27,980 nt of DNA from a virus. The notes under the pieces were generated by a model, which searched no databases, had not been told where the DNA came from, and saw only the letters and a list, made by a program, of their open reading frames with translations. Numbering within the stretch: the stretch's first letter is position 1; each line of letters begins with the position of its first letter. The stretch lies in IMG/VR virus record IMGVR_UViG_3300020165_000122, positions 1 to 27,980 of that record; one strand, 5' to 3'. Both the position numbers and the translations under genes were made by a program. This document shows positions 121-27,131 of this stretch, one piece after another.

Positions 121-153
121 CTAATACAATATACGAAAGTTTTAGCATTAAAG

Positions 154-666
154 TCAAGCTTTTTTTTCAAAAAGTGACATTACTAAACCATCGTACATAT
201 CTATATTCCTCTTATCCCAATTTCCTCGTGTAGTTTCTTTACACCATTTCTTGGTATTATACATTTTTTCTACTTGTTCTTGAACAAATTCTTTTGCTTT
301 TTTACCTTTGATTCTAGCTTTTCCAAATACATTTTTTCTAGCAGTCATAGGATTTATACTATTAACTTCCATCTGAAATATCTCTTCCAACATAAAACAA
401 AGTATAGCATTAAATTTAGCTAATTTAACAATAACTTGTTGAGAAGTTCTCCCACCAGCAAATCCTGATAGATTATCTTCAATATTAATATCTACCGTAT
501 TATCAATATACGGACTTTTATTGAGAAAATCAAGAACTTTCTGAACTTTATCTTTGGGTGTTGTTTCTTTTTTGATGTCGATGAATCCCATATCGAGAAT
601 CTTCTTATCTTGTGTGAATGCATAACCGACACAAGTCGTTGATGCATCTAATCCTAATGTAACCAT
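154..666 (-). CDS. RuvC-like Holliday-junction resolvase (RNase H fold)
   Basis: A 170-residue protein expected to cut branched DNA, such as Holliday junctions formed during phage recombination and before packaging. All four acidic positions of the RuvC active site are present: D7 in LGLDAST, E63 in NIEDN, and D156 and D159 in NIDMYDGLVMS. The spacing is close to bacterial RuvC (about 170 residues). The basic stretch around residues 108-124 (ARKNVFGKARIKGKK) would suit DNA binding. The ATG at 666 is chosen over an upstream ATG at 699 because AAGGA lies 8 bases before it, the conserved fold begins there, and the longer form would overlap the preceding gene. T4 itself uses the unrelated endonuclease VII for this step. 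The family assignment is firm; substrate preference is inferred. Confidence 0.85.
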   Translation of the reverse strand: MVTLGLDASTTCVGYAFTQDKKILDMGFIDIKKETTPKDKVQKVLDFLNKSPYIDNTVDINIEDNLSGFAGGRTSQQVIVKLAKFNAILCFMLEEIFQMEVNSINPMTARKNVFGKARIKGKKAKEFVQEQVEKMYNTKKWCKETTRGNWDKRNIDMYDGLVMSLFEKKA

Positions 667-674
667 ATTATTTT

Positions 675-679
675 TCCTT
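675..679 (-). promoter_or_regulatory. Ribosome binding site of the RuvC-like gene
   Basis: The minus strand reads AAGGA, 8 bases upstream of the ATG at 666. It decides the start in favour of 666 and against the in-frame ATG at 699, which lies inside the preceding gene. Confidence 0.7.
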
Positions 680-683
680 ACTT

Positions 684-1172
684 TTATGCAAAATCCCATT
701 CAACATCAACAGCTTCACAAGTAGCAGGTGATGCTGTTAATTTAATTGGGAATCTATCATTTGATGTACTTGGTTGTCCTACTTCAACATGCCCACCTAA
801 ACCACCAAATCCATCAACAATAGGAGTTTCTCCACTTACTTCTCCACCGTGTTCCATATGGAAGAAACAATCGACAGTTCCATCACTAGCAACGGCTCCT
901 GGAATAACTGCAGTACCTAAATTAAGTGTTGATTGTTCTCCAGTATCAGGTAGTGTTGCTTGACCTCTAAGCAGATATCCAGAACTATAAGTAACAGTAT
1001 TAGCTAATCCTATTGAATATCTCGCCACGAGAGCATTACCACCATTGTTCTGATGGTCTACACTAAATGTTAATGATATTCCAGAAACTGATTCTGTCTC
1101 TACAGATAATTTTCCACTTTTTACACTAAGTTTACCACCACTACCAACTTTTAATTTTCCTATAACACCCAT
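684..1172 (-). CDS. Small virion structural protein with GKL.V repeats
   Basis: A 162-residue protein I do not recognise by family. Its first 26 residues contain three short repeats (GKLKVGSG, GKLSVKS, GKLSVETES), a pattern like the short beta-strand repeats that start phage tail-spike or fibre proteins. The rest is rich in G, S, T and V without membrane segments, consistent with an all-beta structural domain. It is the last gene of the structural block. It starts one base after the TAA of the preceding gene with no clear Shine-Dalgarno sequence, so translation is probably coupled. A tail appendage or head decoration protein is likely; the exact role is unknown. Confidence 0.7.
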   Translation of the reverse strand: MGVIGKLKVGSGGKLSVKSGKLSVETESVSGISLTFSVDHQNNGGNALVARYSIGLANTVTYSSGYLLRGQATLPDTGEQSTLNLGTAVIPGAVASDGTVDCFFHMEHGGEVSGETPIVDGFGGLGGHVEVGQPSTSNDRFPIKLTASPATCEAVDVEWDFA

Positions 1173-1173
1173 A

Positions 1174-2070
1174 TTATATATCTAATTTTATTTTAAATCT
1201 CATATTTATCTTATCACTTTTTCTAATTGCTCTTGGTAAAGTAGCTTGAATTACAGGTGTATCATAATCACCATCTTGCCACAAATTAATTTGAGTTATA
1301 TATGGTTGAAATTCACTACCAGTAAATGGTGAAGCTAAATATCGTGTAGATAAAGTTACTGGTTCATTACTACCACTTAAAACATTTCTTACTGAATAAT
1401 TCATTGTGTGATTAAATTCATTTGGAGAAAGAACAACATTATATTCATGACTATGAATTGTATTAAATGAATCAAACTTTAATTTATAGTTTGTAGCTAA
1501 ATCAGAATATTTAACACTACCACTCCAAGAACCTGTCTCTGTTATAATTGCTAAACCTTTATCATAAAATATATTACCAACATAATTATCAGATGATGAA
1601 GCATTTGTTATACTTTGTGAATGATGTGCATTAGTTGAATATAAATTACCAAAACCATCATCTATAATTATTGGATTAACACTATTGTTATCTACATTAG
1701 AACCTGAAATATCTGTAAATTTAAAACTACCCTCTTTTATTTTTTCACCATAATATTGAGTTGGAATTGTAATTAAAGAACTACTTGGGTATCCGTGATA
1801 TTTTGTTAGAAATTGTGTACCTATTATTTGGTTGATTGACAAGTTACTTGAAGGGGTTGCAAACTTACTTTCACTTACATATACAGATGAACCACTCGTA
1901 TAAAACAATGTATTTAAAGAACTCCAATAATTATTGTTTATTGAACCTGAAACTATTTTTACTGAGGTTATTCCAACAGAAGATGTAGTAAGGTTTTGAG
2001 TATAGTTTACAACATTACTCTCAATTACCTTTGATGATTTATCAATCCCCTTAAATACAAAGTCTGACAT
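1174..2070 (-). CDS. Phage structural protein, paralogous in its C-terminus to the upstream 372-residue protein
   Basis: A 298-residue S/N/T-rich, probably all-beta protein with no recognised catalytic motif. The last roughly 45 residues (YITQINLWQDGD, then LPRAIRKSDK and the ending MRFKIKLDI) line up with the end of the neighbouring 372-residue protein (FITQVQLFNDKQ, TPLKKNFT, IKVKLTY). The two therefore appear to share a C-terminal module by duplication. It begins 9 bases after its neighbour's stop. No Shine-Dalgarno sequence is visible before the ATG at 2070, unlike most genes here, so reinitiation is likely. A tail or fibre component is inferred from position and composition only. Confidence 0.75.
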   Translation of the reverse strand: MSDFVFKGIDKSSKVIESNVVNYTQNLTTSSVGITSVKIVSGSINNNYWSSLNTLFYTSGSSVYVSESKFATPSSNLSINQIIGTQFLTKYHGYPSSSLITIPTQYYGEKIKEGSFKFTDISGSNVDNNSVNPIIIDDGFGNLYSTNAHHSQSITNASSSDNYVGNIFYDKGLAIITETGSWSGSVKYSDLATNYKLKFDSFNTIHSHEYNVVLSPNEFNHTMNYSVRNVLSGSNEPVTLSTRYLASPFTGSEFQPYITQINLWQDGDYDTPVIQATLPRAIRKSDKINMRFKIKLDI

Positions 2071-2079
2071 AGCATATCA

Positions 2080-3198
2080 TTAATAAGTTAATTTAACTTT
2101 TATTGTTGCTTCAGTAGTAAAATTTTTCTTTAGTGGAGTTGAAAGATTACCAACAGCAACCAAGTCTTGTTTATCATTGAATAATTGAACTTGAGTTATA
2201 AATGTTTGTGGATTACTTTTCATTAATGTATTTCTTAATTCATTCATTGAACCACTAACAAATGTTGGGTTATTTGAAAAATTCATTTGACCTGAATGTA
2301 TTCTACAAAAATATTGAGCACTTACTTGGTCTTCTTCATCTCTAAATTTCATTGATGTTCCAAGTGGTTGTAAACAATTTACAAATCTTAAAGCTGTGTT
2401 TGTATCAAGAGAAGTTCCTTTATAATAACCAAGTCCAGCCTGTGATGATGATTCATATTGAACTACACCACCAACCTCTTCAAAAGCTCCTGGAATACTA
2501 GCTGATAACTCAGCTGCACTGAATACCATAATTCCCATATCAGGATAAAAATAACCAAAGTTTCTTACTGTAGATTCTGCTACAATAGTACCAGCTGCTG
2601 AACAACTCACAATATTATATCTATCTCCAACAGGAGTTGAAGTAGGTGAATCATTAACACTGTCATCCTTTAGGTGTAGTGCAGCTGCAGCTCCACTACC
2701 CACAACTCCCTTTGCTGCAGAAGTAGAACCACTCAAAGCTATTTGCCAAGTTCCTTTATTAATTCTATCTTTCATATTAGTTCTTCTAGCAGAAAGAACA
2801 TAAATTTCGTCATCTCTTCCAGTAACCTGACCTGCAGATCCACCTGATGAAATAACAAAACCACCAGTTACTTCTGTAGGAGCTAAAAGTATATTCGCAT
2901 ATTGTCTATAAATAGCTTCCGTTTCAGATTTAGTACCTGCTTCAACATTAGCACCATATCCATTCAAGCTACCAAATGTTACATTAAATTCTTCAGTTGA
3001 TAATGTATCCGCGTGAGCTATACCAAAAAAATATTTTTTGTTATCAGCTGATAAATTAGATGATGTTTTTAAATTAGCTCCTAATATTGTAGTATCACCA
3101 CCTGAAAAATAAGGTGAGGTTACTTTTTCCGTCTGGGAAATTTTATCTATACCCTCAGGAGTTGTTGTTAAATTTATTTTTGTACCAGCTATTGACAT
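2080..3198 (-). CDS. Phage structural protein with shared C-terminal beta module
   Basis: A 372-residue protein preceded by a good ribosome binding site (AGGAGAT, 6 bases before the ATG at 3198). Its composition is G/S/A/T-rich with many SGS turns, typical of virion beta proteins. The C-terminal 45 residues (TFITQVQLFNDKQDLVAVG, ending in KVKLTY) resemble the end of the next gene product. I recall similar endings (L.AV..LS.P..K.F..E..I.VKL) in other marine phage structural proteins, but cannot confirm this without a search. It lies between the 232-residue protein and its paralogue in a compact operon. Fibre, tail-tip or head-fibre are all possible. Confidence 0.75.
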   Translation of the reverse strand: MSIAGTKINLTTTPEGIDKISQTEKVTSPYFSGGDTTILGANLKTSSNLSADNKKYFFGIAHADTLSTEEFNVTFGSLNGYGANVEAGTKSETEAIYRQYANILLAPTEVTGGFVISSGGSAGQVTGRDDEIYVLSARRTNMKDRINKGTWQIALSGSTSAAKGVVGSGAAAALHLKDDSVNDSPTSTPVGDRYNIVSCSAAGTIVAESTVRNFGYFYPDMGIMVFSAAELSASIPGAFEEVGGVVQYESSSQAGLGYYKGTSLDTNTALRFVNCLQPLGTSMKFRDEEDQVSAQYFCRIHSGQMNFSNNPTFVSGSMNELRNTLMKSNPQTFITQVQLFNDKQDLVAVGNLSTPLKKNFTTEATIKVKLTY

Positions 3199-3216
3199 TT
3201 GATAATCTCCTAATTA

Positions 3217-3915
3217 TTAATTTGTAGAACCTTGAATTTGTGTTGCTAAACTATTTTTTGTATTTTTAGTAACATTATTTATAGCAGTGAATGAAGCATA
3301 AGCAGCTGTTGCTATATCAACTACAAATAAATTAGTTGAACGCCCCTTCACATCTTGTTGTCTTGGTCTTAACTTAAATCTATCTGTTTTATAATGATAT
3401 TCTTTAGCATGTGGAATATCTTGTTCTGTTAAAAACATTGCACTTGTTCCACTTAAAGTTCCTGGTCTTTCTTCTGCTCCATCAATCTTAAAAAGAGATG
3501 GGTCTTGGAGTACAACATATTTTCCTTGAGATTCACCACTATAACCAACTAATTCTGTAGTTATATCAAATCCTAAAGTTCCATCTTCATATGTTTTTGT
3601 AGTTCCTCCTGCAGAATCTAAGCCACCTAATATTAAAGCAGGTATGGCAACTGTGTTTTGATGTAAACTTATTAACCTATTTCTTAAATTGTATTCTGCA
3701 TGAACACTAGCTTCTAATTGTGGTAAATTCTCTATAGCTTCACCATATTTATCAGTACCATCTGGATGTAATGGATTCCATAAACTATAATCTACACCAG
3801 TGTCTGAACATGTAAATGAAGTGATATTTAAATTACCACCACTTTTTAAAAGTTCTCTTCCTTTTTTTGTTAAAACTGCATCAACTGTAATTGATGTGTT
3901 GTCTAAATATCCCAT
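3217..3915 (-). CDS. Conserved phage structural protein (MGYLDN-type)
   Basis: A 232-residue protein beginning MGYLDNTSITVDAVLTKKG, a start I recognise as typical of a conserved structural protein in marine T4-like phages: a helical opening with 'LTKKGRELL', followed by a beta domain with 'FTCSDTGVDYSLWNP' at about residues 34-48. No enzymatic motif is present. It has a strong ribosome binding site (AGGAG, 7 bases before the ATG). It is the first gene after the second copy of the 19-bp AT-rich element at 3951-3969, so it may head a separate late transcript of four small structural genes. Its place in the particle (baseplate, fibre or neck) is unknown. Confidence 0.8.
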   Translation of the reverse strand: MGYLDNTSITVDAVLTKKGRELLKSGGNLNITSFTCSDTGVDYSLWNPLHPDGTDKYGEAIENLPQLEASVHAEYNLRNRLISLHQNTVAIPALILGGLDSAGGTTKTYEDGTLGFDITTELVGYSGESQGKYVVLQDPSLFKIDGAEERPGTLSGTSAMFLTEQDIPHAKEYHYKTDRFKLRPRQQDVKGRSTNLFVVDIATAAYASFTAINNVTKNTKNSLATQIQGSTN

Positions 3916-3950
3916 TTGTTTTCTCCTGCTTTAAATAAAATTATACTTTA

Positions 3951-3969
3951 ATTCATATATAAATATTAA
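3951..3969 (-). promoter_or_regulatory. 19-bp AT-rich element, copy 2 (candidate late promoter)
   Basis: The plus strand reads attcatatataaatattaa, identical over all 19 bases to 26027-26045, the only other copy noticed. It sits in the 81-base gap between the 1625-residue gene and the 232-residue gene, 35 bases before the latter's ATG. Minus-strand reading gives TTAATATTTATATATGAAT. The plus-strand reading contains a perfect T4 late promoter box, TATAAATA (3958-3965). Repetition in two of the few intergenic gaps supports a regulatory role; which strand it serves is not settled. Confidence 0.5.
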
Positions 3970-3996
3970 TAAAAATAAAAAATACCCAAATTTAAA

Positions 3997-6900
3997 TTAG
4001 TATATTATATTATCATTGGAATCTATCCGTGTATTTGGTGTTTTAACTGTAATTTGATTTTCACCACCAGTAACATTAACTCTATAAAATGAAGCACTTG
4101 AATAATCTTCATATTCTACATTTAAAATACCTGGATTTGTATTTTGTGTTCCATTAATCATTTGCTCTTTAAATGGATTACTAAATCTATTAATATGATT
4201 CGTTGGTAAAATTATATTTCCATCTGAACCAGTAAAGAAATATCGTGTTTTACCCATCATTCTACCTGTTCTGTTTCCAGGATTTCCATTTATATAAGAT
4301 TCATATGTTGAATCTGCATGAATACCATCACTTATTATTGTTCTATTATGTAATCTCGAATAATTAGAAAAATCTGTGAAATCACCATTTGAACCTGAAT
4401 ATATTTCCTCATCACCTATTGATACAAAATGGTATCTTGAATCTATATGATAAGTATTAAAGTTACCATATGAACTAGTCCCACCACCATAATTTATAAA
4501 ATGAGTAGAATTTAATCCAGCTCCTGAACTAGCACTATTCCAACTATCGTGTATATTTACAAATGATTTATTAGCGTGAGAAGAATAATCAATTGAACCT
4601 GATTTTGGAAATATTACTATTGAACCAGTCATTAATTTTGAAGTTATTATTGAAAGGGAACCTGTATATGGGTTTATAACTAAGCTAGTAATTTGAGTTA
4701 AAGTATTTGTACTACCTGAATCTGATATTTTTATTGATGCACTATAAGGTAACTCAAGTTTTGAACCACTGGTAGATGGTATTATAAATGAACTCTCCAC
4801 ACTTGGTATTCCAAACGGATTATATCCTCTACGAACTGAACCACTTATTGGTAAATCTATAGATGAACCAGTCATTATTGATTCAACAGAAACTACAGAA
4901 ATACTACTTGTAAAAACATTTGGATTTATTTCAATTGAACCACTTTCACCTTGAGTTTTTTGTTTTTCTAATATTGTTGGTTTTATTTCAACACCCATAT
5001 TGGAATTTCTACCACTAAATGTTGAACGAGCTGGTATTAATTTTTTCATACCTTCTGTAATAGAATGATTAAACATATTTTCATGAGCTCTAATAAATTT
5101 ATTTGTATCAATTGTAATTGGGTGTGCATCAAAGAATTTTTCTTTAAATGTATCAAATTCACTATATGATTGTGAATAATAATTTAATGGATTTCCATAT
5201 AATTTTTCTAAATTAAATCCACCTATATTATTTAATATATAATCATTTACAAAATTCTGAGGTGAACGATATAATTCTAATTTATCAGAAGTTTTAAATT
5301 GTGGTTTTTTACCTAAAGGATTTGTTAATGATACAACAGCTGGAATATTTGGATTTAAATTACCAATTATACTTTCTTTTGGATTAATTAAAATATTATT
5401 ATCATTTTTATATAAAGTGTTATCTGTTGTTGAAAGATTAATAATATCAATGTAATCAAAACCATATACACTTGAGGTATTAAATGTAGTTCCAGATTTT
5501 GTAAAAGAGTAATCGGAGTAAATTGTTGTTGGTGCAGAATCTACAATTTTTAAATTTTGTGCAGATGATGATACAGATGAACTTAAATAATTTTCATTTA
5601 ATTTAAAATTATATATTAATTCATTCTTATGTGAATTAATTGTATTACCAACTGTTGATAATTTATTTAATGTATGTTGTCTAAACCTTGATATACTTAA
5701 TGCACTAGACCAACCCCTTATTTCGGTTAAAGAACCACTTACTGATTCGCCCACAAATAGATTAGAAGATGAATCTGCGTGTCTACTACCACTTGATGGC
5801 CAATTTTGATTTGCATAAAAACCTAATCCACCTAATGTTGAACCTCCAGCCAATCCACCACTCACAGACATAGCTACATAATTATATGTTTGTATTTTAA
5901 CATCATCTTGTAAAGCTGAATGTAGTCTATATTCATTAGTTCCACTACCACTAATACTACCAGTCATCCTTTGTAACATTACATTCCACAATTGTCCATC
6001 AGTCATTGAACTATAAGCTGATGACATTCTGAAACGATTACCCGCGATTGCTGATGAACCTGTTTGAGAACTATTTAATCTAAATTCAAATGAAGAACTT
6101 TCACCTAGAGTACTTGGGACTAATCTTAAATCCCAAAGTGTTTCAGCACCACTACCACTTGATTTTAAAATTGTTTGAGTATTAGTTGTATGTTTATGTT
6201 TATATATAAACTCAAAAGTATTTAAATCAGCATCATCCATCCACCAATCAAGATTAAAAATTCTATCAGAATTATTACCAACAATATAACGATGTAATTT
6301 TTGTTTCTTTTTTGTAAACCCAATACTTCCAGTTGATATAGTTAAATTTAAATCATTTTGATTACCTCTTGTAGCTGGGGGTGGTGAATCCGAAAATACT
6401 GGATTTACATTATCTGTAGAAGTATTATTTTGTGTTGAACCACCAAATTCTTGAAACTCCAACACATCAGGTGGATAACCATATGTATTTAACAACCCTC
6501 TTATTGAATTTTTAGTTCCTTTTGATTTGTAAATGTATAATAAATTGTTTAGAGTTTTTTTCCAAGTTTGATTTTTAATGTCATCAATTGATGTTACATT
6601 AGTCAAATAACTTCCCAATGTATCAGTTAAACTGCCACTAAAAGGATTGATTGTTTCCCAACCTATATTATTCAGTAACATTGGTAATGTGTTATCTGGT
6701 GGTGAATCTGTTTTTTTATATCCTCTATCGTGTAATGTTCCCATTGAATCAATATGGTTTCTAATTAAATCATATTGTTCACCTTGTAATGCAAGAAAAT
6801 CTTTCATTTCATTGTAATCAGAACTTTCTTGAATGTAGAGAGGTAAGTTATTTTCTAAACTATGTATGTTAATAGTATCAAAAGCTTCTGCATTAGTATA

Positions 6901-8874: not shown

Positions 8875-11447
8875 TACAATGCTCCCTTAGTATTTCCAAT
8901 TTTCTTTGGAACTTTTATAAATGAATCTCTTCTCATAGGCCGATTTTTCTGTGGTTTTGTGATTTTATAGTCACCAATCAATAAACCTTTATTTAAATTT
9001 CCACTTGAATCATAAATAGATTTACCTTCTAAATTACCAGTATTAATTTCTAATTTACAATTTGCTTTTAAATTAACATCTGAATTGTCACCTATAAATA
9101 TCTGTCCGACTGAACTTTCCTTTGAAAAAGATGATGTTGTGTGGTTGCCATCCCAATACAATGAACCATCTTCTTTTAATGCATTATGTGGTACAAAATT
9201 ATTGTATACTTGAAGTTCAGGAAAAAAATATTCTGGTGGATTTACAGCTCCCCCAGCAGCTGATGGTATAGTATTTGTTTGACTCGAAATAACTAATGGA
9301 TATAGATATTCTGCTATATCAGATCTTCCAATATTTGCCCATACAACAGCATCATTAACATCAAGGATACGATCACCATTTGTAGACAATGGAGCAATAT
9401 CAAATTCTTCAAAATATTGTGGAAATGGTAAATCTTCTAATAGGTTTAGTTTTGTGTCAACATAAATTCCAAGTAATTTATTTATATCATAACTACCTGT
9501 ATTAAAAAATCTAGCTTGTTCTAAATCTAATTTTTCTATGTTTTTACCAAGTTCATCGTTATCTCTAGCGTTTATTAAAAAATTTCTATCATTAATATCT
9601 GAAGTATTAGATATTTTTCCACCTTGTAGAGTATTAGTAACACTTTTTAAATATTTAGACTCTTTACTAACACCACCAATAATAGGTGTTGTATACGGCC
9701 ATGGTATTGTTGTAAAATCAGATCCACCCACTTCACCGAAATCTGGAAATTCACTTATTGGAATATCTAAATATAATCTACAAGTTACTAATTTCCACCT
9801 AACTGGTTCTAAATTCATAAATGGTAATCTTTCCTGTCGTACATTACTATTATCTACATTATACCATTTTACATAACTAAAAACTACTGCTTTAATTGTC
9901 TTAATACCAGAAGTAGTATAATTATGTACTAAAGGATTTTGAAATGGTGGATTATCACCTGGTGTTTGTGGAAAGGAAATAGATTGATGTAAATCATTAA
10001 AAATATATGTATTGTTTTTTCTTTGTAAATTTTTTATATCATTTTGGGTAACAACTCTATCATTTAAAACATCATCTAAAGTTTTATATTTATTTTCTTT
10101 ATCATCCCAATCAACAACAAAAAATTTATAGTATGGGGGAACGTCTTCACTATTATTTTCTAATATATAATCATCTGTAGTTTGAATTTCTGAAATTGAG
10201 AATGTTAAAGATACACTAGATGGAGCTGAATGTTTTTGTTGTTCAATATAATTTGATTTATATTCTTGTAAAGAAGATGATTCATTTCCCAATGTAACAT
10301 GTGGAACAGGTATATAATTTTTTGTAAAATAATTTTGTTGATTTAATGTTCCCGTATGAATAGATGAAATTTCATTAGTTAGAGTATAAGCAATGTAATC
10401 TGTTGCAAATGTATCAATATTAAAAAATTTTCCTGCAGTGATACTTCCAGTTATAGGATTGTATATTTGAGGTGGACTATAGGTATCACCAGCCCCAGCA
10501 GCAGTAGTAATTGTTAAACTGAAATTAGTTACTTTCCAAGCTGCAGCTCTTGAACCACCACTATCTTTTGTATCAGCTGATGTAAATTCAAAAGTTGTTG
10601 TTGTTGGGGAGATAATTTCACTATCTTTTATAAATAAGTCATCTTGACTTATTTTAAATACTTCAAATCTTTTTCTTCTTGCTCTAGTTCTTCCATGTTT
10701 CCATTTTTTTCTATCTCCCTTTAACCAAAATACAACTTGAATATAATTATTTTCATCATCTTCTTGAAAAATATTTGAAATAGATGAATCAGTTTGATTA
10801 GATGGATTAAATGGTTGATTATTAATGTTTCCATCTAAATTATTATTCACATCAGGAAAAAATCTTTTTAATTCAAGGTTTGCAAATTCACCCACAGAAG
10901 GAGTTGATTCTCTATTAAGATTAGATACCATAGTTTGACCAGATAAAAAATCTAATTCTCCTGGTCCTTTTTTCTCATCATAACTAGGCATATCCCAGTC
11001 CATAAAACATCCAGTATGCCAAGGAGAACTATCTTTATCAGTACCATCTACAACATTTAAACCGATTCCATTGTATATTCCATCATACATATCATCGTAA
11101 GATTTTAAAGATTGATTTTCATCATAACAATCAAAAGTATTTCTATCAAATATAAATCCCCTAGCATGTGTACGTCTTACCCTATAACTAACACCTGAAT
11201 TATCTATTCTTACCCTATCAATAGTAATATTAGATGAACCTTTAAATCTTAATCCACCAGCTAATATTTTTTCATTTAAAGGATCACCTACAGAAGTTGC
11301 ATATAATGCATTATCAGAAAATTTATTGTATGGTGTTTGAACTCCACTAGAGGATATAAAAGCTTCATCTATAGAATTACCAGTATAATGATATTGACCA
11401 AATGCATTTGCATTAGGATAATGTTTAAATAATTTTTTCTTAGCCAT
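8874..11447 (-). CDS. Large tail/baseplate appendage protein sharing modules with the 2111-residue protein
   Basis: An 857-residue protein with no enzymatic motif. Two stretches match its larger upstream neighbour. One is TTPIIGGVSKESKYLKSV near residue 586, against TTPIIGGYSKESIYYKSI near 1132 of the neighbour. The other is a C-terminal module (DSSGNLNKGLLIGDYK, about 805-822) against DESGNNNKGFVFSDFK, each followed by a K/R-rich tail ending in TKG. An arginine-rich patch (KKWKHGRTRARRKRFEVF) lies near residue 250. The gene is tied to both neighbours by TAATG stop-start overlaps, implying translational coupling and matched production. It is likely an assembly partner of the 2111- and 1625-residue proteins on the tail; its exact role is unknown. 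Confidence 0.7.
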   Translation of the reverse strand: MAKKKLFKHYPNANAFGQYHYTGNSIDEAFISSSGVQTPYNKFSDNALYATSVGDPLNEKILAGGLRFKGSSNITIDRVRIDNSGVSYRVRRTHARGFIFDRNTFDCYDENQSLKSYDDMYDGIYNGIGLNVVDGTDKDSSPWHTGCFMDWDMPSYDEKKGPGELDFLSGQTMVSNLNRESTPSVGEFANLELKRFFPDVNNNLDGNINNQPFNPSNQTDSSISNIFQEDDENNYIQVVFWLKGDRKKWKHGRTRARRKRFEVFKISQDDLFIKDSEIISPTTTTFEFTSADTKDSGGSRAAAWKVTNFSLTITTAAGAGDTYSPPQIYNPITGSITAGKFFNIDTFATDYIAYTLTNEISSIHTGTLNQQNYFTKNYIPVPHVTLGNESSSLQEYKSNYIEQQKHSAPSSVSLTFSISEIQTTDDYILENNSEDVPPYYKFFVVDWDDKENKYKTLDDVLNDRVVTQNDIKNLQRKNNTYIFNDLHQSISFPQTPGDNPPFQNPLVHNYTTSGIKTIKAVVFSYVKWYNVDNSNVRQERLPFMNLEPVRWKLVTCRLYLDIPISEFPDFGEVGGSDFTTIPWPYTTPIIGGVSKESKYLKSVTNTLQGGKISNTSDINDRNFLINARDNDELGKNIEKLDLEQARFFNTGSYDINKLLGIYVDTKLNLLEDLPFPQYFEEFDIAPLSTNGDRILDVNDAVVWANIGRSDIAEYLYPLVISSQTNTIPSAAGGAVNPPEYFFPELQVYNNFVPHNALKEDGSLYWDGNHTTSSFSKESSVGQIFIGDNSDVNLKANCKLEINTGNLEGKSIYDSSGNLNKGLLIGDYKITKPQKNRPMRRDSFIKVPKKIGNTKGAL

Positions 11448-14400
11448 TAAAATGGTCCTTTAGTTTTTTTACTTTTAATTCTATTTGTATTTTTTGTTTT
11501 TTTAGGTGTAAGCGTTTCAATATCAAATTTTGGTTTAAAATCACTAAAAACAAAACCTTTATTATTATTACCACTTTCATCATCTAATACATTAATATCA
11601 ATTTGATTTGTATTAATATTTATTTTTAATGATTTATCATCTAAATTATCATTAGTTATTGGTGCATTTAATGGGAATGGTATTCTATTACAAGGTAATG
11701 AATCTGATTGAAATAAACCATCAGCTTCATATCTTGGTAATACAGGATAATAATAATTATCAATCCACTCTTGTTGTGAATAAATATCTATTGATTTATT
11801 TAATCCTCTAAAATAACTTGTAGGAATTTCAAAAACCATATTACCATTCCAAACCATAGCTCCATTTGAACTTACACCATTATCATTATATGATGTTTGG
11901 TCTGGATTATCTTCCATATAATCATATATTTCAGGAGCATCATAATATACATTAATATTGTGAGTATTTGGATTTCCGTCAAAAGTTTCACCATTTATTT
12001 TTATTGATGATACATATAAATTTCTATCTTGTTCTCCCGAAGGTCCAAGTAGAGGTGGTGTTCCATTATTATCATAATTAATTTTTATTTCTTGAACATC
12101 TAAACTTTTATCAATTGGCATATCAAATCTATAATCAACTTCAGGTCCTATAGACATATTATAACCTGTATTTATAATAAAACCACTGTCAATTATATTT
12201 CCGTTTACAATATAATTATAATGTGGTGCAACACCAAGAGTTCCAGATTCAAGGTCAACATCAGCCATTCCAGTCATAGTAACTGATATTTGATTATCTA
12301 ATCCTTTTCTATTATAAATACTGTAATTTTCAGGAATAATGTTTTTCCAATATCTTAAATGTGATGGATTTCCAACATGTTCTAACCCTCTTGTAGATTG
12401 ATTTCTTCTACCATCACTACTTCCTAAACATACACCAGCATCCATATCACAAATATATCCTGTAGGACATATTCCATCTTCAACAATTATTTGCACGCTA
12501 GATATATATTTACAACTAGCATTTACATCTGGATTATCAGCTAATACTTGATTGAGTTCCGTACAAAGTTCAGGTGAAGTATATCCAGTTCCACAATAAT
12601 CTTTATATTCTTCAGCATCATCTCCTGTTGCATAACACGATGTACAGTTTCCAAGTGTATCTTCATAAGTTTCGTCAATTACACTACCATAATGAGGTAA
12701 CATACAATAATAATTATGAGTTGCATCATTATATTGAGAACACGTTCCATGACTTAGACATGGTACGGGAAAGCTTTTTGACTGACATGGTACTGTACAA
12801 ACATTAGTGTTTTCTTGAGGTGCCCAATAGCTTGTACCACAATAACTATAAAAATTCACATCTTGCAAATCTCCAGTTTCACCATCAGTAACACTTACTT
12901 CTTCATTTGGAGGATCTTCACAGTCAAAACTCATCCAACAATGTTCACCAATTTGACTTTCATAAAATGGGTATGTTGTCATATCTATACCACCTGAGTT
13001 GGAGGGACACACATCAATATTAAAATTTAATGTTGTTTGAACACCACCGTATGGCATCATACCATCCCAATTACTACCCAAATAAGGAGCTTCCCAATAT
13101 GGCGTTTCACCATCTACTACTATCAAATATGTATATCCTTTTACAAACTCTTCTAAACCACCAAATGGGATATAACCATTGGGAAAAAATGGATTTCCTT
13201 GTGGTAAAATATTATTTATTACATCACTCGTTAACAGAACAAAATCAGACATTCCCACACCACCATGTGAATCAAAATATGACGAATCTGAATATGGATA
13301 TTCTCCATCAGGATTTAATAATTGAATCCATACCGTTTCACTTCCTGTTCGTTCTTCTATAGTATCTAAAATATTAAATGTTGTATCAGCTGTCCATACT
13401 GCTGTACACTCCTCACCAGCTGGTGTTCTAAAACATTGTAATGTTTCAGGTTTACCGGTAGAAGGGTACTCAGGACTAATTTTAGTTGGAGGTAAAGTTG
13501 AAAATGTTATTGTTGTATTTCCTGGATATACACAACTACCATCATTATTTGTTGCATATTGATTGTAATTACAAGCTTCACTATCTGAACATCCATCCAT
13601 ATCATTTTCATCACAAATACCATTATTATTCTGATCATTTAAACATTCACCAGCACAATCAAATATTTCACTTTTAAATAAATTTTCAGCTAGTTCAGTT
13701 AGTTGATTACCTGTATATTCATGTATACCATCTTGATTAACTATATCCGTTGGGAATGTACATGTAAAATTATTAATTGTAGCTTGACTATTATAATTAC
13801 AAGCTGAGGAATCCATACACCCATATATTCCTAAATAATTATCATCTGTTACAGTTCCAGCTTCTTCATCTAAATTCCAAGCTTGGGTTTCTTCATCCCA
13901 AACCCACACATTACCATTCTCATCAACAACTATTTGACCATCATACTCACCATAGATACCACCAGTAGCTGGGTCTATAGCGTTAGATGGTGTATAAAAA
14001 TCTTCACAGTCAGAGTTATCTCTCTCATACCAATCTTCATCACCCAATAATTCCCATATTTGTTTTGGTTCATTGAAATATCTTACATTTGTTATATCCG
14101 AATCACCAACTGACTTTCCAATTTCTTCAGTATTTATTTTTAAACCATTATTTATTTTGTCGCCAAGTTCATCTGGTAAACTAAATCTTTCTTTTTTAAA
14201 TTCATTTAAAATATTTAAATTATCATCAAATGATGTATTTAATTTATTTAAAGCAATTTCTGTTTTTAATTTATCACTTATTTTATCAAAATTTACATCT
14301 ACTTTTATATCATCGGATATTAGTCCATTATTTCTTTTTATTGATTTATAATAAATACTTTCTTTAGAATAACCACCAATAATTGGTGTTGTATTTTTAT

Positions 14401-17400
14401 AAGGAATAAATGAAAATCCATCTGAACCAAAATATGTAAAGTCTTCATCAGCCCCCTCATTAATGTTTATCCTTAAAGTAAATCTTTTATTACTAACTAC
14501 CCCAAGTGTATTAGTACTATATTCTCTTAAATCTCCTATATAATTACCTTGTACACTTTCAGGTTTCATTCTAAGTATTGTTCCTGTTATTTCGTATATA
14601 CCACTTTCTTTAAAATAGTGATATATCATTTTTGAATTATTTAATTGTTCAGGCTCTTTAAAATCTATTGGAGAATTATCACCCCAATCTACATCGTATA
14701 TATAAAAATATCCATATGAAAAATCATCAAACATTATATCCGAATTACTAAAAATATCATTATTTGGAAATCTTGGATAAAAATAAAATTGTGCTTCTAA
14801 TGGAGCAGTTGTATCATTATAAGCTTCAACTTGTTCTTCTATTGTTGGGTCGTAATACTTTGTTAAAGAAGCTTTACCAAAATTTGCAGTAGATATTTTT
14901 TTTCTAACATCAACATCTATATTAAAATCATATGATTCTTTTACTTCAAAATTATCCAAATATATTACAGCTTTTTTATCTATATTTGGAAAGTTTGAAT
15001 TATTCCCCTGATAATATTGAAGTAATGGACCTGAAGAATATGTGTTTGTTAAATCTACATCTGGAAGAATTAATTTTGGGAATACATAAAATTCCATTGG
15101 ACCTTTTAATGATTTTAAATTTGAAGATATTCTATCATAACTTGGAGCAACTATATATTCAAATTTTTCCCAAAGGTTTAATTTTGTATTATTAAATCTT
15201 CCAATTCCAGATTGCCAACCTTTTTCGTTTTCAGTTGTATTAACATCATAATTAGTTATTCCAGTATTATTAGGATCAATAGGTACATTACCAACCAATG
15301 AATTATAATAAGCATTTTGTTCAGAAGTTCTATAAGCATAACCTTCACCTAACCCATCTTCATCTGCATCAGGTGTATAGGTTTGAGTATTTGTACCACC
15401 AAAGGTTAACATAGTTCCAACACCAACATCTTCAATATTGACAGAATCATCTATAACTGTAGTTTTCATATAAAATGAAATTCTAAATGTTTGATATGGT
15501 TGTAAATTTAAATTTGTATCAGATAAGTGTTGTTCGTTAGATATAATAGCTCTTTGAGCAAAATATGAACCCATACCATAATTACTGGGTCCAAGATTAA
15601 GTGTATCCATAATTAAACATTTGTTAGCAGTTAAACATTCATCATTATTTTTACTCCAAAAACTATTTCGTGGATAATCAGCTGGAACACCACCATCATC
15701 CGCATCACTATATTGTGATACATCAGCATCAATATTGATAAGGATTGGCCATTTATTTTGTTTATAAATTTCCCATCCTTCTGGTTTGTATGGTTCTCCA
15801 TCATTTCTACTATAATAATCTGTGCCGCTTGTTGTCGAACCAAGTGTTGAATAATTAAAATTATTTTGACCATCTCCATCATCATCTATACCTTCAACAA
15901 AAGGATGAATAAACTTACCATTACCATTTGATAATAAATTACCTTTTGGATATTGTGAAAATTTTTCATCCGATAAATTTTCTAAAAAATTATCAGTTAA
16001 TTCATTATCGTCTTCTGTTTGAAATATTCCTAAAGCTGGTCTTTTATCATTATCACTTAAATAATAATCATTAGAATTGTATTGTGTTACAAAATTACAA
16101 GCATCTCTACCACTTTTATATCTCCCATACAACTTCCAATCTTCTGGATAGTGTAATGTATTTCCCTCTTCACAGGATTTATAAGCCAATCTAACTCTAT
16201 CACCATTGTTACATACAGCTACTAATTCATTTAATTGAAGATCAATTTCTATTTCACTGTCACAATTATAGGAATTAAATGCAAGAGTACCACCTTCTTC
16301 TGTAGTAGTAGGTAATGGATAAAATCTACCAAAGTAAGAATCATCTTCGTCAGTTTCATAACATCTCATTATTTCTAAATGACTACAAGTTTCTACAACT
16401 TCTGGTCTTAAATCTATACCACTATATGCATCATAATCTTCACCATTAGTTTTCGTCATTGTTTGTTCAATATTAACACCAGCTATACCAAAATCATTCC
16501 AAGATTCAGGATATATAACATCATTCATCCATTGATAAAATAATTCTCTATATCTATCTTCATGATACCCACAAGCTTCAATATTATCTTGAGGTGGAAA
16601 AGATTGACATAAAACTGGCCCCATTGGAGCTCCCAATCTAAATATTACATCAAGTGCTTTTCTTCTACCTTCAGCTGTATATCCAAATTGAGCAAATAAA
16701 TTAGAACCAGTCCTAACCAAATTAATTGTTTGAGTTGGAATCCAACCTAAACCAAACCCCTCTAACGTCTCGTCTGTCTGTACGGATACATACCTACTTA
16801 TATAGTAAGAAATACTTAGCTGTTCATTGTTACCATTAATTAAGTTATCTAAAACATTTCCCTCATTAGAACCAAAGAAACAATGACCATATGGTGGATT
16901 ATTGGTATTAGTAGGTTCTGTTGGCATATAATAACCATGAAAATCTTGTTGGTAATAGGGATTAGGACAAGAACAACCACGAAATGGATCGAGATTATCA
17001 AATTGATTGTTACTAATAAGATGTGGGTGGGCACCATTATCGAAACTATCATATGGTATTACTGTATCAGTATTTAAATCATAAAATGGGTAAAAGAGAA
17101 AACTATTATAATCCTCACCAATTTCAACATTTTCATAATATTCTTCAACTAAATTATAGGTGCTGCCATATGGTACTACACACAAAGCATCCAAGTGGTA
17201 ATAACTAATTGTATCACTACTATTAGTACCACATGGATAGAGATTACAAGCATCACTAAAGCTATTCATCATAGCAGGATCACTAGGAAGCATATCCTCC
17301 GAGTCACAACATTGGTAAGATATATCTGGTTCATCAAATACATCAGGATCCAATGGTTTTACACACTCCCAACAAGCAGCGTCCCCATTAACAAAACAAC

Positions 17401-17782
17401 CTGGTGCACAATAATCAGGATCAGGATTATCACCTGGATCTACTAAAAGACCATCCCACGATACAATGGAAATAGGTGAGTCGGGTGAATAATCTACTAC
17501 AGAATGGTTATTCCAATAATTAATGTCAAGAGAAGATTCTTTAAACTCTTCAGTTAAGTAAGAAATAGTTGGAACTTCTTCTCCAATATAACGACAATTA
17601 AACCCTATTCTATTTATACCGTTTTCTTCTGTAGCTATTTCATCACCATATAACAAATCACCAATTTCAACAGGTCTCCAAAACTGACATTCTATTAATT
17701 CGGGGTTAAGATTTCTGGTAACTTTATATCCGTTACTTAATATTTCCGTATTATGAGTATATTCTCCGTAATATTCCGCCAT
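11447..17782 (-). CDS. Giant cysteine-rich tail adhesin-like protein
   Basis: At 2111 residues this is the largest gene here. Visible modules: a cysteine-containing N-terminal part (about 120-310). An acidic loop DDDGDGQNN follows near 645. A PKD/Ig-like strand set lies at about 1017-1071 (DVDWGDNSP, then YHYFKESGIYEITG). The module PIIGGYSKES, shared with the next gene, is near 1132. Two GC.DS.ACNYN..AT repeats occur at about 1320 and 1396, separated by a calcium-loop-like DQNNNGICDEND. About 1610-1790 is EGF-like, with 16 cysteines and endings such as CPTGYICDMDAGVC. The C-terminal DESGNNNKG module is also shared with the next gene. No signal peptide or membrane segment is seen. A start at 17782 is supported by AAGG. 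Position after the wedge genes suggests a host-contact protein; receptor binding is inferred. Confidence 0.75.
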   Translation of the reverse strand: MAEYYGEYTHNTEILSNGYKVTRNLNPELIECQFWRPVEIGDLLYGDEIATEENGINRIGFNCRYIGEEVPTISYLTEEFKESSLDINYWNNHSVVDYSPDSPISIVSWDGLLVDPGDNPDPDYCAPGCFVNGDAACWECVKPLDPDVFDEPDISYQCCDSEDMLPSDPAMMNSFSDACNLYPCGTNSSDTISYYHLDALCVVPYGSTYNLVEEYYENVEIGEDYNSFLFYPFYDLNTDTVIPYDSFDNGAHPHLISNNQFDNLDPFRGCSCPNPYYQQDFHGYYMPTEPTNTNNPPYGHCFFGSNEGNVLDNLINGNNEQLSISYYISRYVSVQTDETLEGFGLGWIPTQTINLVRTGSNLFAQFGYTAEGRRKALDVIFRLGAPMGPVLCQSFPPQDNIEACGYHEDRYRELFYQWMNDVIYPESWNDFGIAGVNIEQTMTKTNGEDYDAYSGIDLRPEVVETCSHLEIMRCYETDEDDSYFGRFYPLPTTTEEGGTLAFNSYNCDSEIEIDLQLNELVAVCNNGDRVRLAYKSCEEGNTLHYPEDWKLYGRYKSGRDACNFVTQYNSNDYYLSDNDKRPALGIFQTEDDNELTDNFLENLSDEKFSQYPKGNLLSNGNGKFIHPFVEGIDDDGDGQNNFNYSTLGSTTSGTDYYSRNDGEPYKPEGWEIYKQNKWPILINIDADVSQYSDADDGGVPADYPRNSFWSKNNDECLTANKCLIMDTLNLGPSNYGMGSYFAQRAIISNEQHLSDTNLNLQPYQTFRISFYMKTTVIDDSVNIEDVGVGTMLTFGGTNTQTYTPDADEDGLGEGYAYRTSEQNAYYNSLVGNVPIDPNNTGITNYDVNTTENEKGWQSGIGRFNNTKLNLWEKFEYIVAPSYDRISSNLKSLKGPMEFYVFPKLILPDVDLTNTYSSGPLLQYYQGNNSNFPNIDKKAVIYLDNFEVKESYDFNIDVDVRKKISTANFGKASLTKYYDPTIEEQVEAYNDTTAPLEAQFYFYPRFPNNDIFSNSDIMFDDFSYGYFYIYDVDWGDNSPIDFKEPEQLNNSKMIYHYFKESGIYEITGTILRMKPESVQGNYIGDLREYSTNTLGVVSNKRFTLRININEGADEDFTYFGSDGFSFIPYKNTTPIIGGYSKESIYYKSIKRNNGLISDDIKVDVNFDKISDKLKTEIALNKLNTSFDDNLNILNEFKKERFSLPDELGDKINNGLKINTEEIGKSVGDSDITNVRYFNEPKQIWELLGDEDWYERDNSDCEDFYTPSNAIDPATGGIYGEYDGQIVVDENGNVWVWDEETQAWNLDEEAGTVTDDNYLGIYGCMDSSACNYNSQATINNFTCTFPTDIVNQDGIHEYTGNQLTELAENLFKSEIFDCAGECLNDQNNNGICDENDMDGCSDSEACNYNQYATNNDGSCVYPGNTTITFSTLPPTKISPEYPSTGKPETLQCFRTPAGEECTAVWTADTTFNILDTIEERTGSETVWIQLLNPDGEYPYSDSSYFDSHGGVGMSDFVLLTSDVINNILPQGNPFFPNGYIPFGGLEEFVKGYTYLIVVDGETPYWEAPYLGSNWDGMMPYGGVQTTLNFNIDVCPSNSGGIDMTTYPFYESQIGEHCWMSFDCEDPPNEEVSVTDGETGDLQDVNFYSYCGTSYWAPQENTNVCTVPCQSKSFPVPCLSHGTCSQYNDATHNYYCMLPHYGSVIDETYEDTLGNCTSCYATGDDAEEYKDYCGTGYTSPELCTELNQVLADNPDVNASCKYISSVQIIVEDGICPTGYICDMDAGVCLGSSDGRRNQSTRGLEHVGNPSHLRYWKNIIPENYSIYNRKGLDNQISVTMTGMADVDLESGTLGVAPHYNYIVNGNIIDSGFIINTGYNMSIGPEVDYRFDMPIDKSLDVQEIKINYDNNGTPPLLGPSGEQDRNLYVSSIKINGETFDGNPNTHNINVYYDAPEIYDYMEDNPDQTSYNDNGVSSNGAMVWNGNMVFEIPTSYFRGLNKSIDIYSQQEWIDNYYYPVLPRYEADGLFQSDSLPCNRIPFPLNAPITNDNLDDKSLKININTNQIDINVLDDESGNNNKGFVFSDFKPKFDIETLTPKKTKNTNRIKSKKTKGPF

Positions 17783-25599: not shown

Positions 25600-26004
25600 T
25601 TAACTCTCCGTAATATTTGGGTTTATTGTTTTATTTTTTATACCTTCAAGTCTACTTTGTTCTTGCTCTAAATCATTAACTGTATCTTGAAGTGTTCCCA
25701 TAAGTTCTTCTTTTTCTGAATCTGATAATAACATTGATTCATCAGAATCACCTTGTGATTTAGATATGATTCTTTGTAATACACCAGCTAATTTAACGAG
25801 ATGTTCATCGTTTCTAACTGCTGTATCCATATATTCTTTTATGATTGGAGCTACCATAACCACATCATCTATAGTTGTAATGAATCCGTGTATCTCTGAT
25901 ATTAACAAATCTATTTGAACTTTACGCTTTGTAGTGTTCTCATAGATGTCCTTTGTTAAGTCTTGAAAGGTTTTTCCTTTAAATATTTCTTTTTCGTCTG
26001 ACAT
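25600..26004 (-). CDS. Small helical protein, first gene of the baseplate operon
   Basis: A 134-residue, mainly helical, acidic protein of unknown family. The C-terminal third (about 95-125: SEKEELMGTLQDTVNDLEQE, then QSRLEGIKNK) has coiled-coil character. There is no signal peptide or membrane span. It is the first gene after the gp55 terminator and the 19-bp AT-rich element, with a strong ribosome binding site (GAGGAG, 7 bases before the ATG). The next gene begins directly after its stop. The context suggests an abundant or early-needed partner of the hub/spike, such as an assembly chaperone or minor hub protein. Confidence 0.75.
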   Translation of the reverse strand: MSDEKEIFKGKTFQDLTKDIYENTTKRKVQIDLLISEIHGFITTIDDVVMVAPIIKEYMDTAVRNDEHLVKLAGVLQRIISKSQGDSDESMLLSDSEKEELMGTLQDTVNDLEQEQSRLEGIKNKTINPNITES

Positions 26005-26026
26005 ACAATCTCCTCAAGATGTATTT

Positions 26027-26045
26027 ATTCATATATAAATATTAA
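26027..26045 (-). promoter_or_regulatory. 19-bp AT-rich element, copy 1 (candidate late promoter of the baseplate operon)
   Basis: Identical over 19 bases to 3951-3969. It lies between the terminator at 26069-26105 and the first baseplate gene, 22 bases before that gene's ATG, exactly where a promoter is needed for the downstream block. Minus-strand reading is TTAATATTTATATATGAAT, followed in this copy by AAATACATC. The plus-strand reading contains TATAAATA (26034-26041), the T4 late promoter box, but in the direction opposite to the genes. A promoter is likely; its orientation is uncertain. Confidence 0.55.
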
Positions 26046-26068
26046 ATTTGTAAGAAATTGGTTAAAAT

Positions 26069-26105
26069 AAAAAAAAACCTCACCGAGTTGATGAGGTTTT
26101 TTTTA
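26069..26105 (-). terminator. Intrinsic terminator after the gp55-like gene
   Basis: An inverted repeat with arms CCTCA and TGAGG (26078-26082 and 26092-26096), a 9-base loop, and runs of at least eight A and eight T outside the arms. It begins 15 bases beyond the stop of the sigma factor gene. Because both flanks are A/T tracts it could terminate in both directions. It separates the regulatory genes from the structural operon. Confidence 0.85.
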
Positions 26106-26119
26106 TGTTTTATTGTTCT

Positions 26120-26872
26120 TTAAAAAAATGAACCTGATGAATCGTGTATTATTGTACCATTTTTATTAAATAAGTTTAATAACTTTTTATAATGTTTTTT
26201 TAAAACATTAACTACTGATGTAATATGAGCTGTTTCTACATCCGTCATTTCTCTAATCAATATATAAAGAGCTTTTTTATTAAAGTTTTCTATTTCAGCC
26301 CTTTGTTTAATTAAATCAACAATAGCATATCCAATTTTTAAATCTCTATCTTTTTTAAAAATGGTGTTTAAATTTTTATCAAAATATTCAACCATTTCAT
26401 TAGTTAAGGTTACATAATCATCACCATCAAACCTATCTGATTTTCTATATTTATCTAACACATCAATTTGATCATGACTTTTTAATTTTTTATAATTGTT
26501 ATTATTATGAAGAATTAAATAATTTTTAGCCACAACAGAAAAATAACTAAATGCTTTAGAACCTTTTGTATGGTCATATTTATGAATGTTCATTACCATA
26601 AAAGCTACTGTTTCACATTTTATATCTTCAAAACCATAATCAAAATAACTAAATTTAAATGTGTTGATTATATTCTCAGCTAGTTTGTCAAAAGCTGCGT
26701 GTATTCTTGTTCCATAAATTGTATTTCTTTCGTTATCATTTGAAGATGAATTATATTCTACAATTGCGTCTTGAACTTCTTGTCCAAAATAAACTTTTCG
26801 TTTTTTCTTTTTAACTATTTTTTTAATCTCAGCTTTTACATCATTGACTTTTTTATTTTGTTTTTTTGTCAT
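26120..26872 (-). CDS. 55: Late transcription sigma factor, T4 gp55-like
   Basis: A 250-residue divergent sigma factor that would redirect host RNA polymerase to phage late promoters. Residues about 56-130 follow sigma region 2 as in gp55: IHAAFDKLAENIINTFKFS, then GFEDIKCETVAFMVMNIHKYD, and the hallmark KGSKAFSYFSVVAKNYLIL. The N-terminus is extremely lysine-rich. T4 gp55 is 185 residues, so this one has extra C-terminal sequence. Its hydrophobic end (SGSFF) could serve as a sliding-clamp contact as in T4, but that is inference. The ATG at 26872 is chosen over one at 26899 because GAGGAG lies 7 bases before it. The gene overlaps the membrane protein gene by 20 bases and ends at a terminator. 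Confidence 0.88.
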   Translation of the reverse strand: MTKKQNKKVNDVKAEIKKIVKKKKRKVYFGQEVQDAIVEYNSSSNDNERNTIYGTRIHAAFDKLAENIINTFKFSYFDYGFEDIKCETVAFMVMNIHKYDHTKGSKAFSYFSVVAKNYLILHNNNNYKKLKSHDQIDVLDKYRKSDRFDGDDYVTLTNEMVEYFDKNLNTIFKKDRDLKIGYAIVDLIKQRAEIENFNKKALYILIREMTDVETAHITSVVNVLKKHYKKLLNLFNKNGTIIHDSSGSFF

Positions 26873-27131
26873 CTTGACTCTCCTCTTCAAATATCCCATC
26901 TAAAGATAATTGAATTTGTTTTAGTTGTTCAAAGAAAAAACCTGTTTCGTCATCTGATTCATAATGTCCCTTTGAATCTACAAGTTTCATTTTATCTGTT
27001 GCGAATTTAATCACTTGTTGAATCTGTAAAATAAATTCTTCGTATTGTGTTATTCTTCTTAATGAATAAAATAATAATGTAGATGTAACTACACTAATTA
27101 AAAAGAATATTATTGAAAATGTTATCCACAT
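26853..27131 (-). CDS. Small one-span membrane protein
   Basis: A 92-residue protein with a hydrophobic N-terminal segment (WITFSIIFFLISVVTSTLLFY, about residues 2-22) followed by RR, which suggests a signal anchor with the rest in the cytoplasm. The soluble part is acidic and helical, with a FFFEQLKQIQLSLDGIFEEE stretch near 66-85 and a charged end. Its family is not recognised. It has a ribosome binding site (GGGGAT) and overlaps the sigma factor gene by 20 bases, so the two are probably translated together. A role at the host membrane is all that can be inferred. Confidence 0.75.
   Translation of the reverse strand: MWITFSIIFFLISVVTSTLLFYSLRRITQYEEFILQIQQVIKFATDKMKLVDSKGHYESDDETGFFFEQLKQIQLSLDGIFEEESQDDKKTK
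26880..26885 (-). promoter_or_regulatory. Ribosome binding site of the gp55-like gene
   Basis: The minus strand reads GAGGAG, 7 bases before the ATG at 26872. This settles the start against an in-frame ATG at 26899 and places translation initiation inside the end of the membrane protein gene. Confidence 0.75.

Follow-up and report, generated by a model that had tools for sequence, protein, structure and literature searches.

The two exact copies of a 19-bp element in the window (the whole 27,980-nt stretch of DNA analyzed here, which is the complete IMG/VR record and a fragment of a larger phage genome) are, as we conclude with high confidence from sequence comparisons, T4-like late promoters that carry the variant box TATTTATA, would depend on a gp55-type sigma factor, and would start two late transcripts. 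Conservation, strand specificity, the class of the genes that follow, the absence of a −35 signal, and gp55 homology are shown here and support this reading. More generally, TATTTATA very probably acts as the late on-switch of the particle-building genes in an abundant, uncultured marine group of T4-like phages. A gp55-type late promoter had been proposed in the initial annotation, and this core of the proposal is well supported, with the motif found before the late genes of relatives and gp55 homology in its favor; its box is to be read in sense as TATTTATA and not as TATAAATA. What is new is a T4-like late system with the box TATTTATA, with strand and box sequence corrected, and among the papers searched, none describes TATTTATA as a phage promoter.

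The repeat, ATTCATATATAAATATTAA, occurs as two exact copies in the whole 27,980-nt window (copy 1 at 26027 to 26045 and copy 2 at 3951 to 3969), with no third match in the window even when up to three mismatches are allowed, and it is the longest exact direct repeat of the window. Exact direct repeats of at least 19 bp arose in 4.7% of 300 order-3 Markov simulations with the window's composition, indicating that the 19-bp repeat alone is a weak, only marginally unexpected signal. Noncoding gaps make up 1.6% of the window, and the two longest internal ones, of 115 nt (26005 to 26119) and 81 nt (3916 to 3996), each hold one copy; the third-longest measures 72 nt. Copy 1 lies 23 nt before the ATG at 26004, which has the ribosome site GAGGAG, and copy 2 lies 36 nt before the ATG at 3915, with the ribosome site AGGAG. 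The intrinsic terminator after gp55 (26070 to 26104, minus strand), a strong hairpin with a folding z of −5.9, immediately precedes copy 1. The initial annotation had described an identical element in the two longest noncoding gaps, a few tens of bases before genes with strong ribosome sites and in one case directly after the gp55 terminator, and our measurements confirm this.

Since all window genes are on the minus strand, the functional reading of the element is TTAATATTTATATATGAAT, with TATTTATA at 26041 to 26034 in putative late promoter 1 (26027 to 26045, minus strand) and at 3965 to 3958 in putative late promoter 2 (3951 to 3969, minus strand). A T4-like TATAAATA is seen on the plus (noncoding) strand of the element, where it points away from the genes; TAT-NN-ATA is palindromic, so that TATTTATA, a central two-base variant of TATAAATA, is also its reverse complement. 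That the plus strand carries the exact T4 consensus, and that T4 transcribes both strands at some sites (PMC2988020), would speak for a canonical T4 late promoter producing antisense transcription away from the genes. We consider such a promoter very improbable, since relatives enrich TATTTATA and not TATAAATA in sense 20 to 50 nt upstream of starts, the A positions that resemble starts are downstream of the box when it is read in sense, and, the genomes being nearly unidirectional, transcription begun in antisense would enter the late gene upstream. Because the coding direction reads TATTTATA and not the exact T4 box, we call the minus-strand element a variant that would work like a T4 late promoter.

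The strand preference is seen genome-wide. Across eight records, ATATTTATA stands in sense within 80 nt upstream of 104 ORFs, at several to ~30 times the level in shuffled sequences, and the antisense form TATAAATAT precedes 0 to 1 ORF per record. Such upstream sense positions hold 30 of the 37 copies in record G002 and 17 of the 19 in G004, and TATTTATA or its neighbor ATATTTAT is the first or second unsupervised 8-mer in G002, G003, and G004. Over 13 related records, some of them near-identical and hence not 13 independent tests, TATTTATA shows an enrichment of about 10- to 64-fold before genes, confined to the sense orientation; TATAAATA in the coding direction is not enriched in the window clade. 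Both Flavobacterium phage immuto and Microcystis phage Mel-JY01 also have TATTTATA in sense, and neither box is clearly enriched in the stretches read of the 484-kb phage LR756508, a gp55 relative. When the same pipeline was applied to controls, the T4 late region gave TATAAATA in sense as its top word, and cyanophage Syn1 and Pelagibacter phage HTVC008M gave ATAAATA-type boxes ((T)ATAAATA) with no enrichment of TATTTATA, indicating that the orientation of TATTTATA is not an artifact of the method.

Pooling of 102 sites yields the consensus (A/C)TATTTATA(T/A) with 48-fold enrichment, A-rich sequence at positions 10 to 12 and beyond, and neither a −35 signal nor any other strong signal around the box. 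Single box changes sharply lower the enrichment, the best tolerated being C in position 1 and T in position 9. If the A at position 12 is taken as the start, the box would span about −12 to −5. Transcription from promoter 1 would likely start around A26029/A26028, given the A enrichment 11 to 12 nt past the first box base, and that from promoter 2 likely around A3953/A3952. The common 19 bp are an 8- to 9-bp box together with a clade-specific start region, and conservation of the TATGAAT start region does not extend from the window clade to immuto or Mel-JY01. The pooled sites also bear on the idea of a host-sigma promoter, of the sigma-70 or the Bacteroidetes TTG/TAnnTTTG type, in place of a gp55 promoter. 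Copy 2 does have TTAATA-N18-TATAAT (10/12), and the box resembles the TATATTTA half of the immuto early promoters, but scans for host-type promoters give no more matches than shuffles, the TATAAT of copy 2 is missing in the relatives L086 and L087, the 102 sites are without a −35 signal, and clear host-type promoters are found elsewhere, avoiding the late-box genes; we accord a host-sigma promoter only a slim chance.

With respect to conservation of a gp55-type promoter at the two sites themselves, TATTTATATATGA is present behind gp55 in 107 of the 107 related loci that were read through the gap, with box and flank invariant, and ATATTTATATATGA is present there in 79 of the 79 nearest loci, among which the terminator hairpin before the box differs. 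In the other 28 loci, most with a gp55 that is 54 to 75% identical, the block is eroded on its upstream side, leaving TATTTATATATGA, and immuto (gp55 44% identical) has GATATTTATATAA behind gp55. Upstream of the 3217 to 3915 gene, we observe ATATTTATATATGAATTAAAGTATT for the homologues in two nearer relatives (L086 and L087) and a ATATTTATA-type core for most of the more distant homologues examined, while in immuto, whose homologue shows 51% identity over 98 residues, the box lies 27 nt ahead of the start. The presence of the box at the immuto orthologues of both window genes indicates that each of the two sites has been retained at the corresponding position in a distant phage.

Directly upstream of the first box, the CAATTTCTTACAAATTT block (26046 to 26062, minus strand) is nearly invariant in close relatives (L003 to L082). 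The ~45-bp block behind gp55, made up of CAATTTCTTACAAATTT and the box, was considered as a fixed −35 element and rejected, as it decays in distant relatives and CAATTTCTTACAAATTT is also missing from other late sites.

In G002, the box precedes genes with portal, tail sheath, tail tube, baseplate hub, head-tail adaptor, head closure, and virion-protein matches, as well as a chaperonin and a glycosyltransferase gene; its sites in immuto lie before terminase, portal, tail sheath, tail completion, baseplate hub, and tape-measure genes. Occurrence of the motif before other late genes had been set beforehand as a test of the late-promoter idea, and the motif does recur genome-wide in front of late genes in relatives. 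When the late blocks of immuto are delimited from its annotation, the box is found at 15 of 59 late-block genes versus 6 of 159 other genes (P = 1e-5), and a second motif, GTTG-N20-TATATTTAGG, is restricted to genes outside the late blocks. The window clade has the host-type promoter aaaagcTTGACt-N17/18-TATATT before primase, polynucleotide kinase, clamp-loader-like ATPase, and endonuclease genes; in this clade, 29 genes carry just the late box, 16 carry just the sigma-70-type signal, and a single gene carries both. Early signals are of the sigma-70 type in the window clade versus the TTG/TAnnTTT type in immuto and G001, with the late box unchanged, and different host-type early promoters next to the same late box fit a late box that follows the phage's own sigma factor and not the host.

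The distribution over gene classes likewise argues against an element of the leader RNA that would act in ribosome loading, mRNA processing, or mRNA stability instead of as a promoter. Such an element would suit an AU-rich sequence 20 to 50 nt upstream of start codons, but the box favors late genes and rarely shares a gene with an early promoter, its spacing from the start codon is variable (14 to 60 nt in the pooled sites), it follows directly on a terminator, a place in which one expects a new promoter, and it matches no Rfam family; we regard a leader RNA element as hardly credible. Rfam and tRNA searches of the window as a whole were also without a match.

Two further observations concern box distribution. 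A PhoH-like gene carries a late-type box (L166, 389 to 1249), indicating that not all boxes precede virion genes, and late-type boxes are also found at G014 3930 to 4787 and G017 13264 to 14124, genes of a size similar to that of the L166 PhoH-like gene. HTVC008M (L394 to L401) has the early signal GCTTGACTT in common with the window clade, yet its late boxes are TATAAATA, which may hint at a similar host and a different phage sigma factor.

In minus-strand order, the window holds an HD-domain gene, a 92-aa gene, the gp55-like gene, the terminator, and copy 1, followed by a 22-kb baseplate/large-protein block, copy 2, four small genes, a RuvC-like nuclease gene, and a host-type promoter. Presumed late transcript 1 (3997 to 26004, minus strand), a run of unidirectional ORFs with short gaps and with gp25 and gp6 family matches, contains a 134-aa gene, gp25-like and gp6-like baseplate wedge genes, and large adhesin/fiber-like genes. 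One protein of this baseplate/adhesin block has 2,111 aa (11447 to 17782, minus strand) and cysteine-rich Asp/Asn/Gly repeats (e.g., GCMDSSACNYN), which are possibly calcium-binding adhesin repeats. Presumed late transcript 2 (154 to 3915, minus strand) consists of the four small genes and then the RuvC-like nuclease gene. Family searches with the four small genes gave no match, and they are probably structural by position and synteny; in immuto, tail fiber genes follow the orthologue of the first of them. The division into two transcripts, one for the baseplate/adhesin block and another for four small structural genes, as originally suggested, draws support from the sites kept at the immuto orthologues, with position and synteny as the sole basis for the structural nature of the small genes.

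Beyond the RuvC-like gene, the host-type promoter TTGACT-N18-TATATT (128 to 157, minus strand) stands before a primase gene truncated by the contig end, the counterpart of this cut gene in the relative G014 being a DNA primase. Its TTGACT and the RuvC-like stop codon overlap, and only 8 nt separate the end of its −10 element from the ATG at 120, which would make the transcript nearly leaderless. Promoter signals of this type recur in relatives before early-type genes, primase and further replication genes among them.

The predicted gp55-like late sigma factor (26120 to 26899, minus strand; 259 aa) matches PHROG 234 (late sigma factor; E = 8.5e-4) and aligns with a T4-type gp55 profile (hhalign, E = 1.1e-6 over 108 columns), and its predicted model (mean pLDDT 72) can be superimposed on the gp55 chain of the T4 open complex with polymerase (7d7c chain F; Z = 9.6, rmsd = 4.5, 111 residues). 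Other sigma factors score nearly equally by structure, so that sequence and synteny carry the gp55 assignment; a search of the gp55 profile against the sequences of solved structures gave no related match. The nearest named gp55 relatives are those of immuto and Mel-JY01, at 41 to 44% identity. The similarity to T4 gp55 is remote, and we assign the gene to a diverged gp55 sigma factor whose sigma domain 2 is homologous to that of T4 gp55.

In T4 gp55, Y97 reads A−12, N13 and H95 read A−9, and T99 reads A−8 (PMC7892883). In the alignment with T4 gp55, these residues, which are known T4 contacts and not family-defining residues, show an invariant Y97, a change of H95 to Phe, a variable N13, and a T99 that is Ser in the window clade and Mel-JY01 and Gln in immuto. 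TATTTATA keeps the T4 bases −12 and −8, with −9 being one of the two changed bases, and the kept bases coincide with the kept Tyr and Ser residues in what is a suggestive match. Syn1 also has Phe at H95 together with an ATAAATA box, indicating that H95 alone cannot explain the change at −9.

The C-terminal domain of the window gp55 (26120 to 26437, minus strand) is a confidently predicted four-helix domain (pLDDT 88.7) that T4 gp55 lacks and for which a fold search gave weak matches only, several of them to helix-turn-helix or TFIIB-type folds. The conserved -FF at the gp55 C terminus would fit a clamp-binding tail; a gp45-type clamp gave no match in relatives, using models that are weak even on cyanophage. 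A more speculative scenario, which we rate as rather unlikely, is that in a very large T4-like clade the late box and sigma factor co-diverged (the central AA becoming TT, the readers of −12 and −8 staying Tyr and a mostly hydroxyl residue, and the residues around base −9 changing) and that, in addition, the gained gp55 C-terminal helical domain took over the role of gp33, with a split sigma factor becoming one protein.

In the mechanism that we propose, the core would be an 8-bp −10-type box, TATTTATA, on the coding strand, without a −35 box and with an A-rich start region about one helical turn past it. The phage gp55-like sigma factor would bind the host RNA polymerase and open this box; we infer this recognition by gp55, as well as the start sites and the timing. 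In relatives, the sigma factor is apparently made from an operon with a host-type promoter: in G014 and G017, a sigma-70-type promoter precedes the run of genes of which gp55 is the last, which suggests, without proving, that gp55 is expressed early. Copy 1 would begin a ~22-kb baseplate/adhesin transcript directly behind the gp55 terminator, and copy 2 would begin a second transcript with the four small, probably structural genes and the RuvC-like nuclease gene.

Searches for late promoters in uncultured T4-like phages usually rely on the TATAAATA of T4. In the window clade, this approach hits the box on the wrong strand and overlooks where the operons start, and the clade comprises more than 500 gp55 relatives confirmed in IMG/VR among the matches listed. 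With the TATTTATA box, late operons can be marked in marine phage contigs, and the clade offers a natural sigma/promoter variant pair to compare with the solved T4 complex.

Compared with the T4 late promoter and its gp55, gp33, and gp45 system (PMC1524935, PMC2988020, PMC7892883), the window clade has a similar 8-bp AT-only box without a −35 element and with A/T-rich sequence downstream, placed before structural genes in a phage that encodes a gp55-type sigma factor. Six of the eight box bases are identical, and the inferred span of about −12 to −5 is close to that of the T4 late box TATAAATA, at −13 to −6 (PMC1524935). Unlike in T4, the central AA is TT, making the box the reverse complement of that of T4, and the window gp55 has 259 aa and an extra C-terminal domain, versus 185 aa in T4 gp55. 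Aeh1, cyanophage, and HTVC008M also have short, −10-only boxes upstream of late genes, but all of them keep AAATA, unlike the window clade; the Aeh1 late box, CTAAATA (PMC1524935), indicates that a late box can drift between phages. Pelagimyophage late promoters were not predictable with the cyanophage method, according to the authors (PMC7029224), and since HTVC008M shows TATAAATA boxes, the TATTTATA variant is not the reason for this failed prediction. Immuto and Mel-JY01 are like the window clade in having TATTTATA in sense, with immuto differing from it in its early promoters of the TTG/TAnnTTT type.
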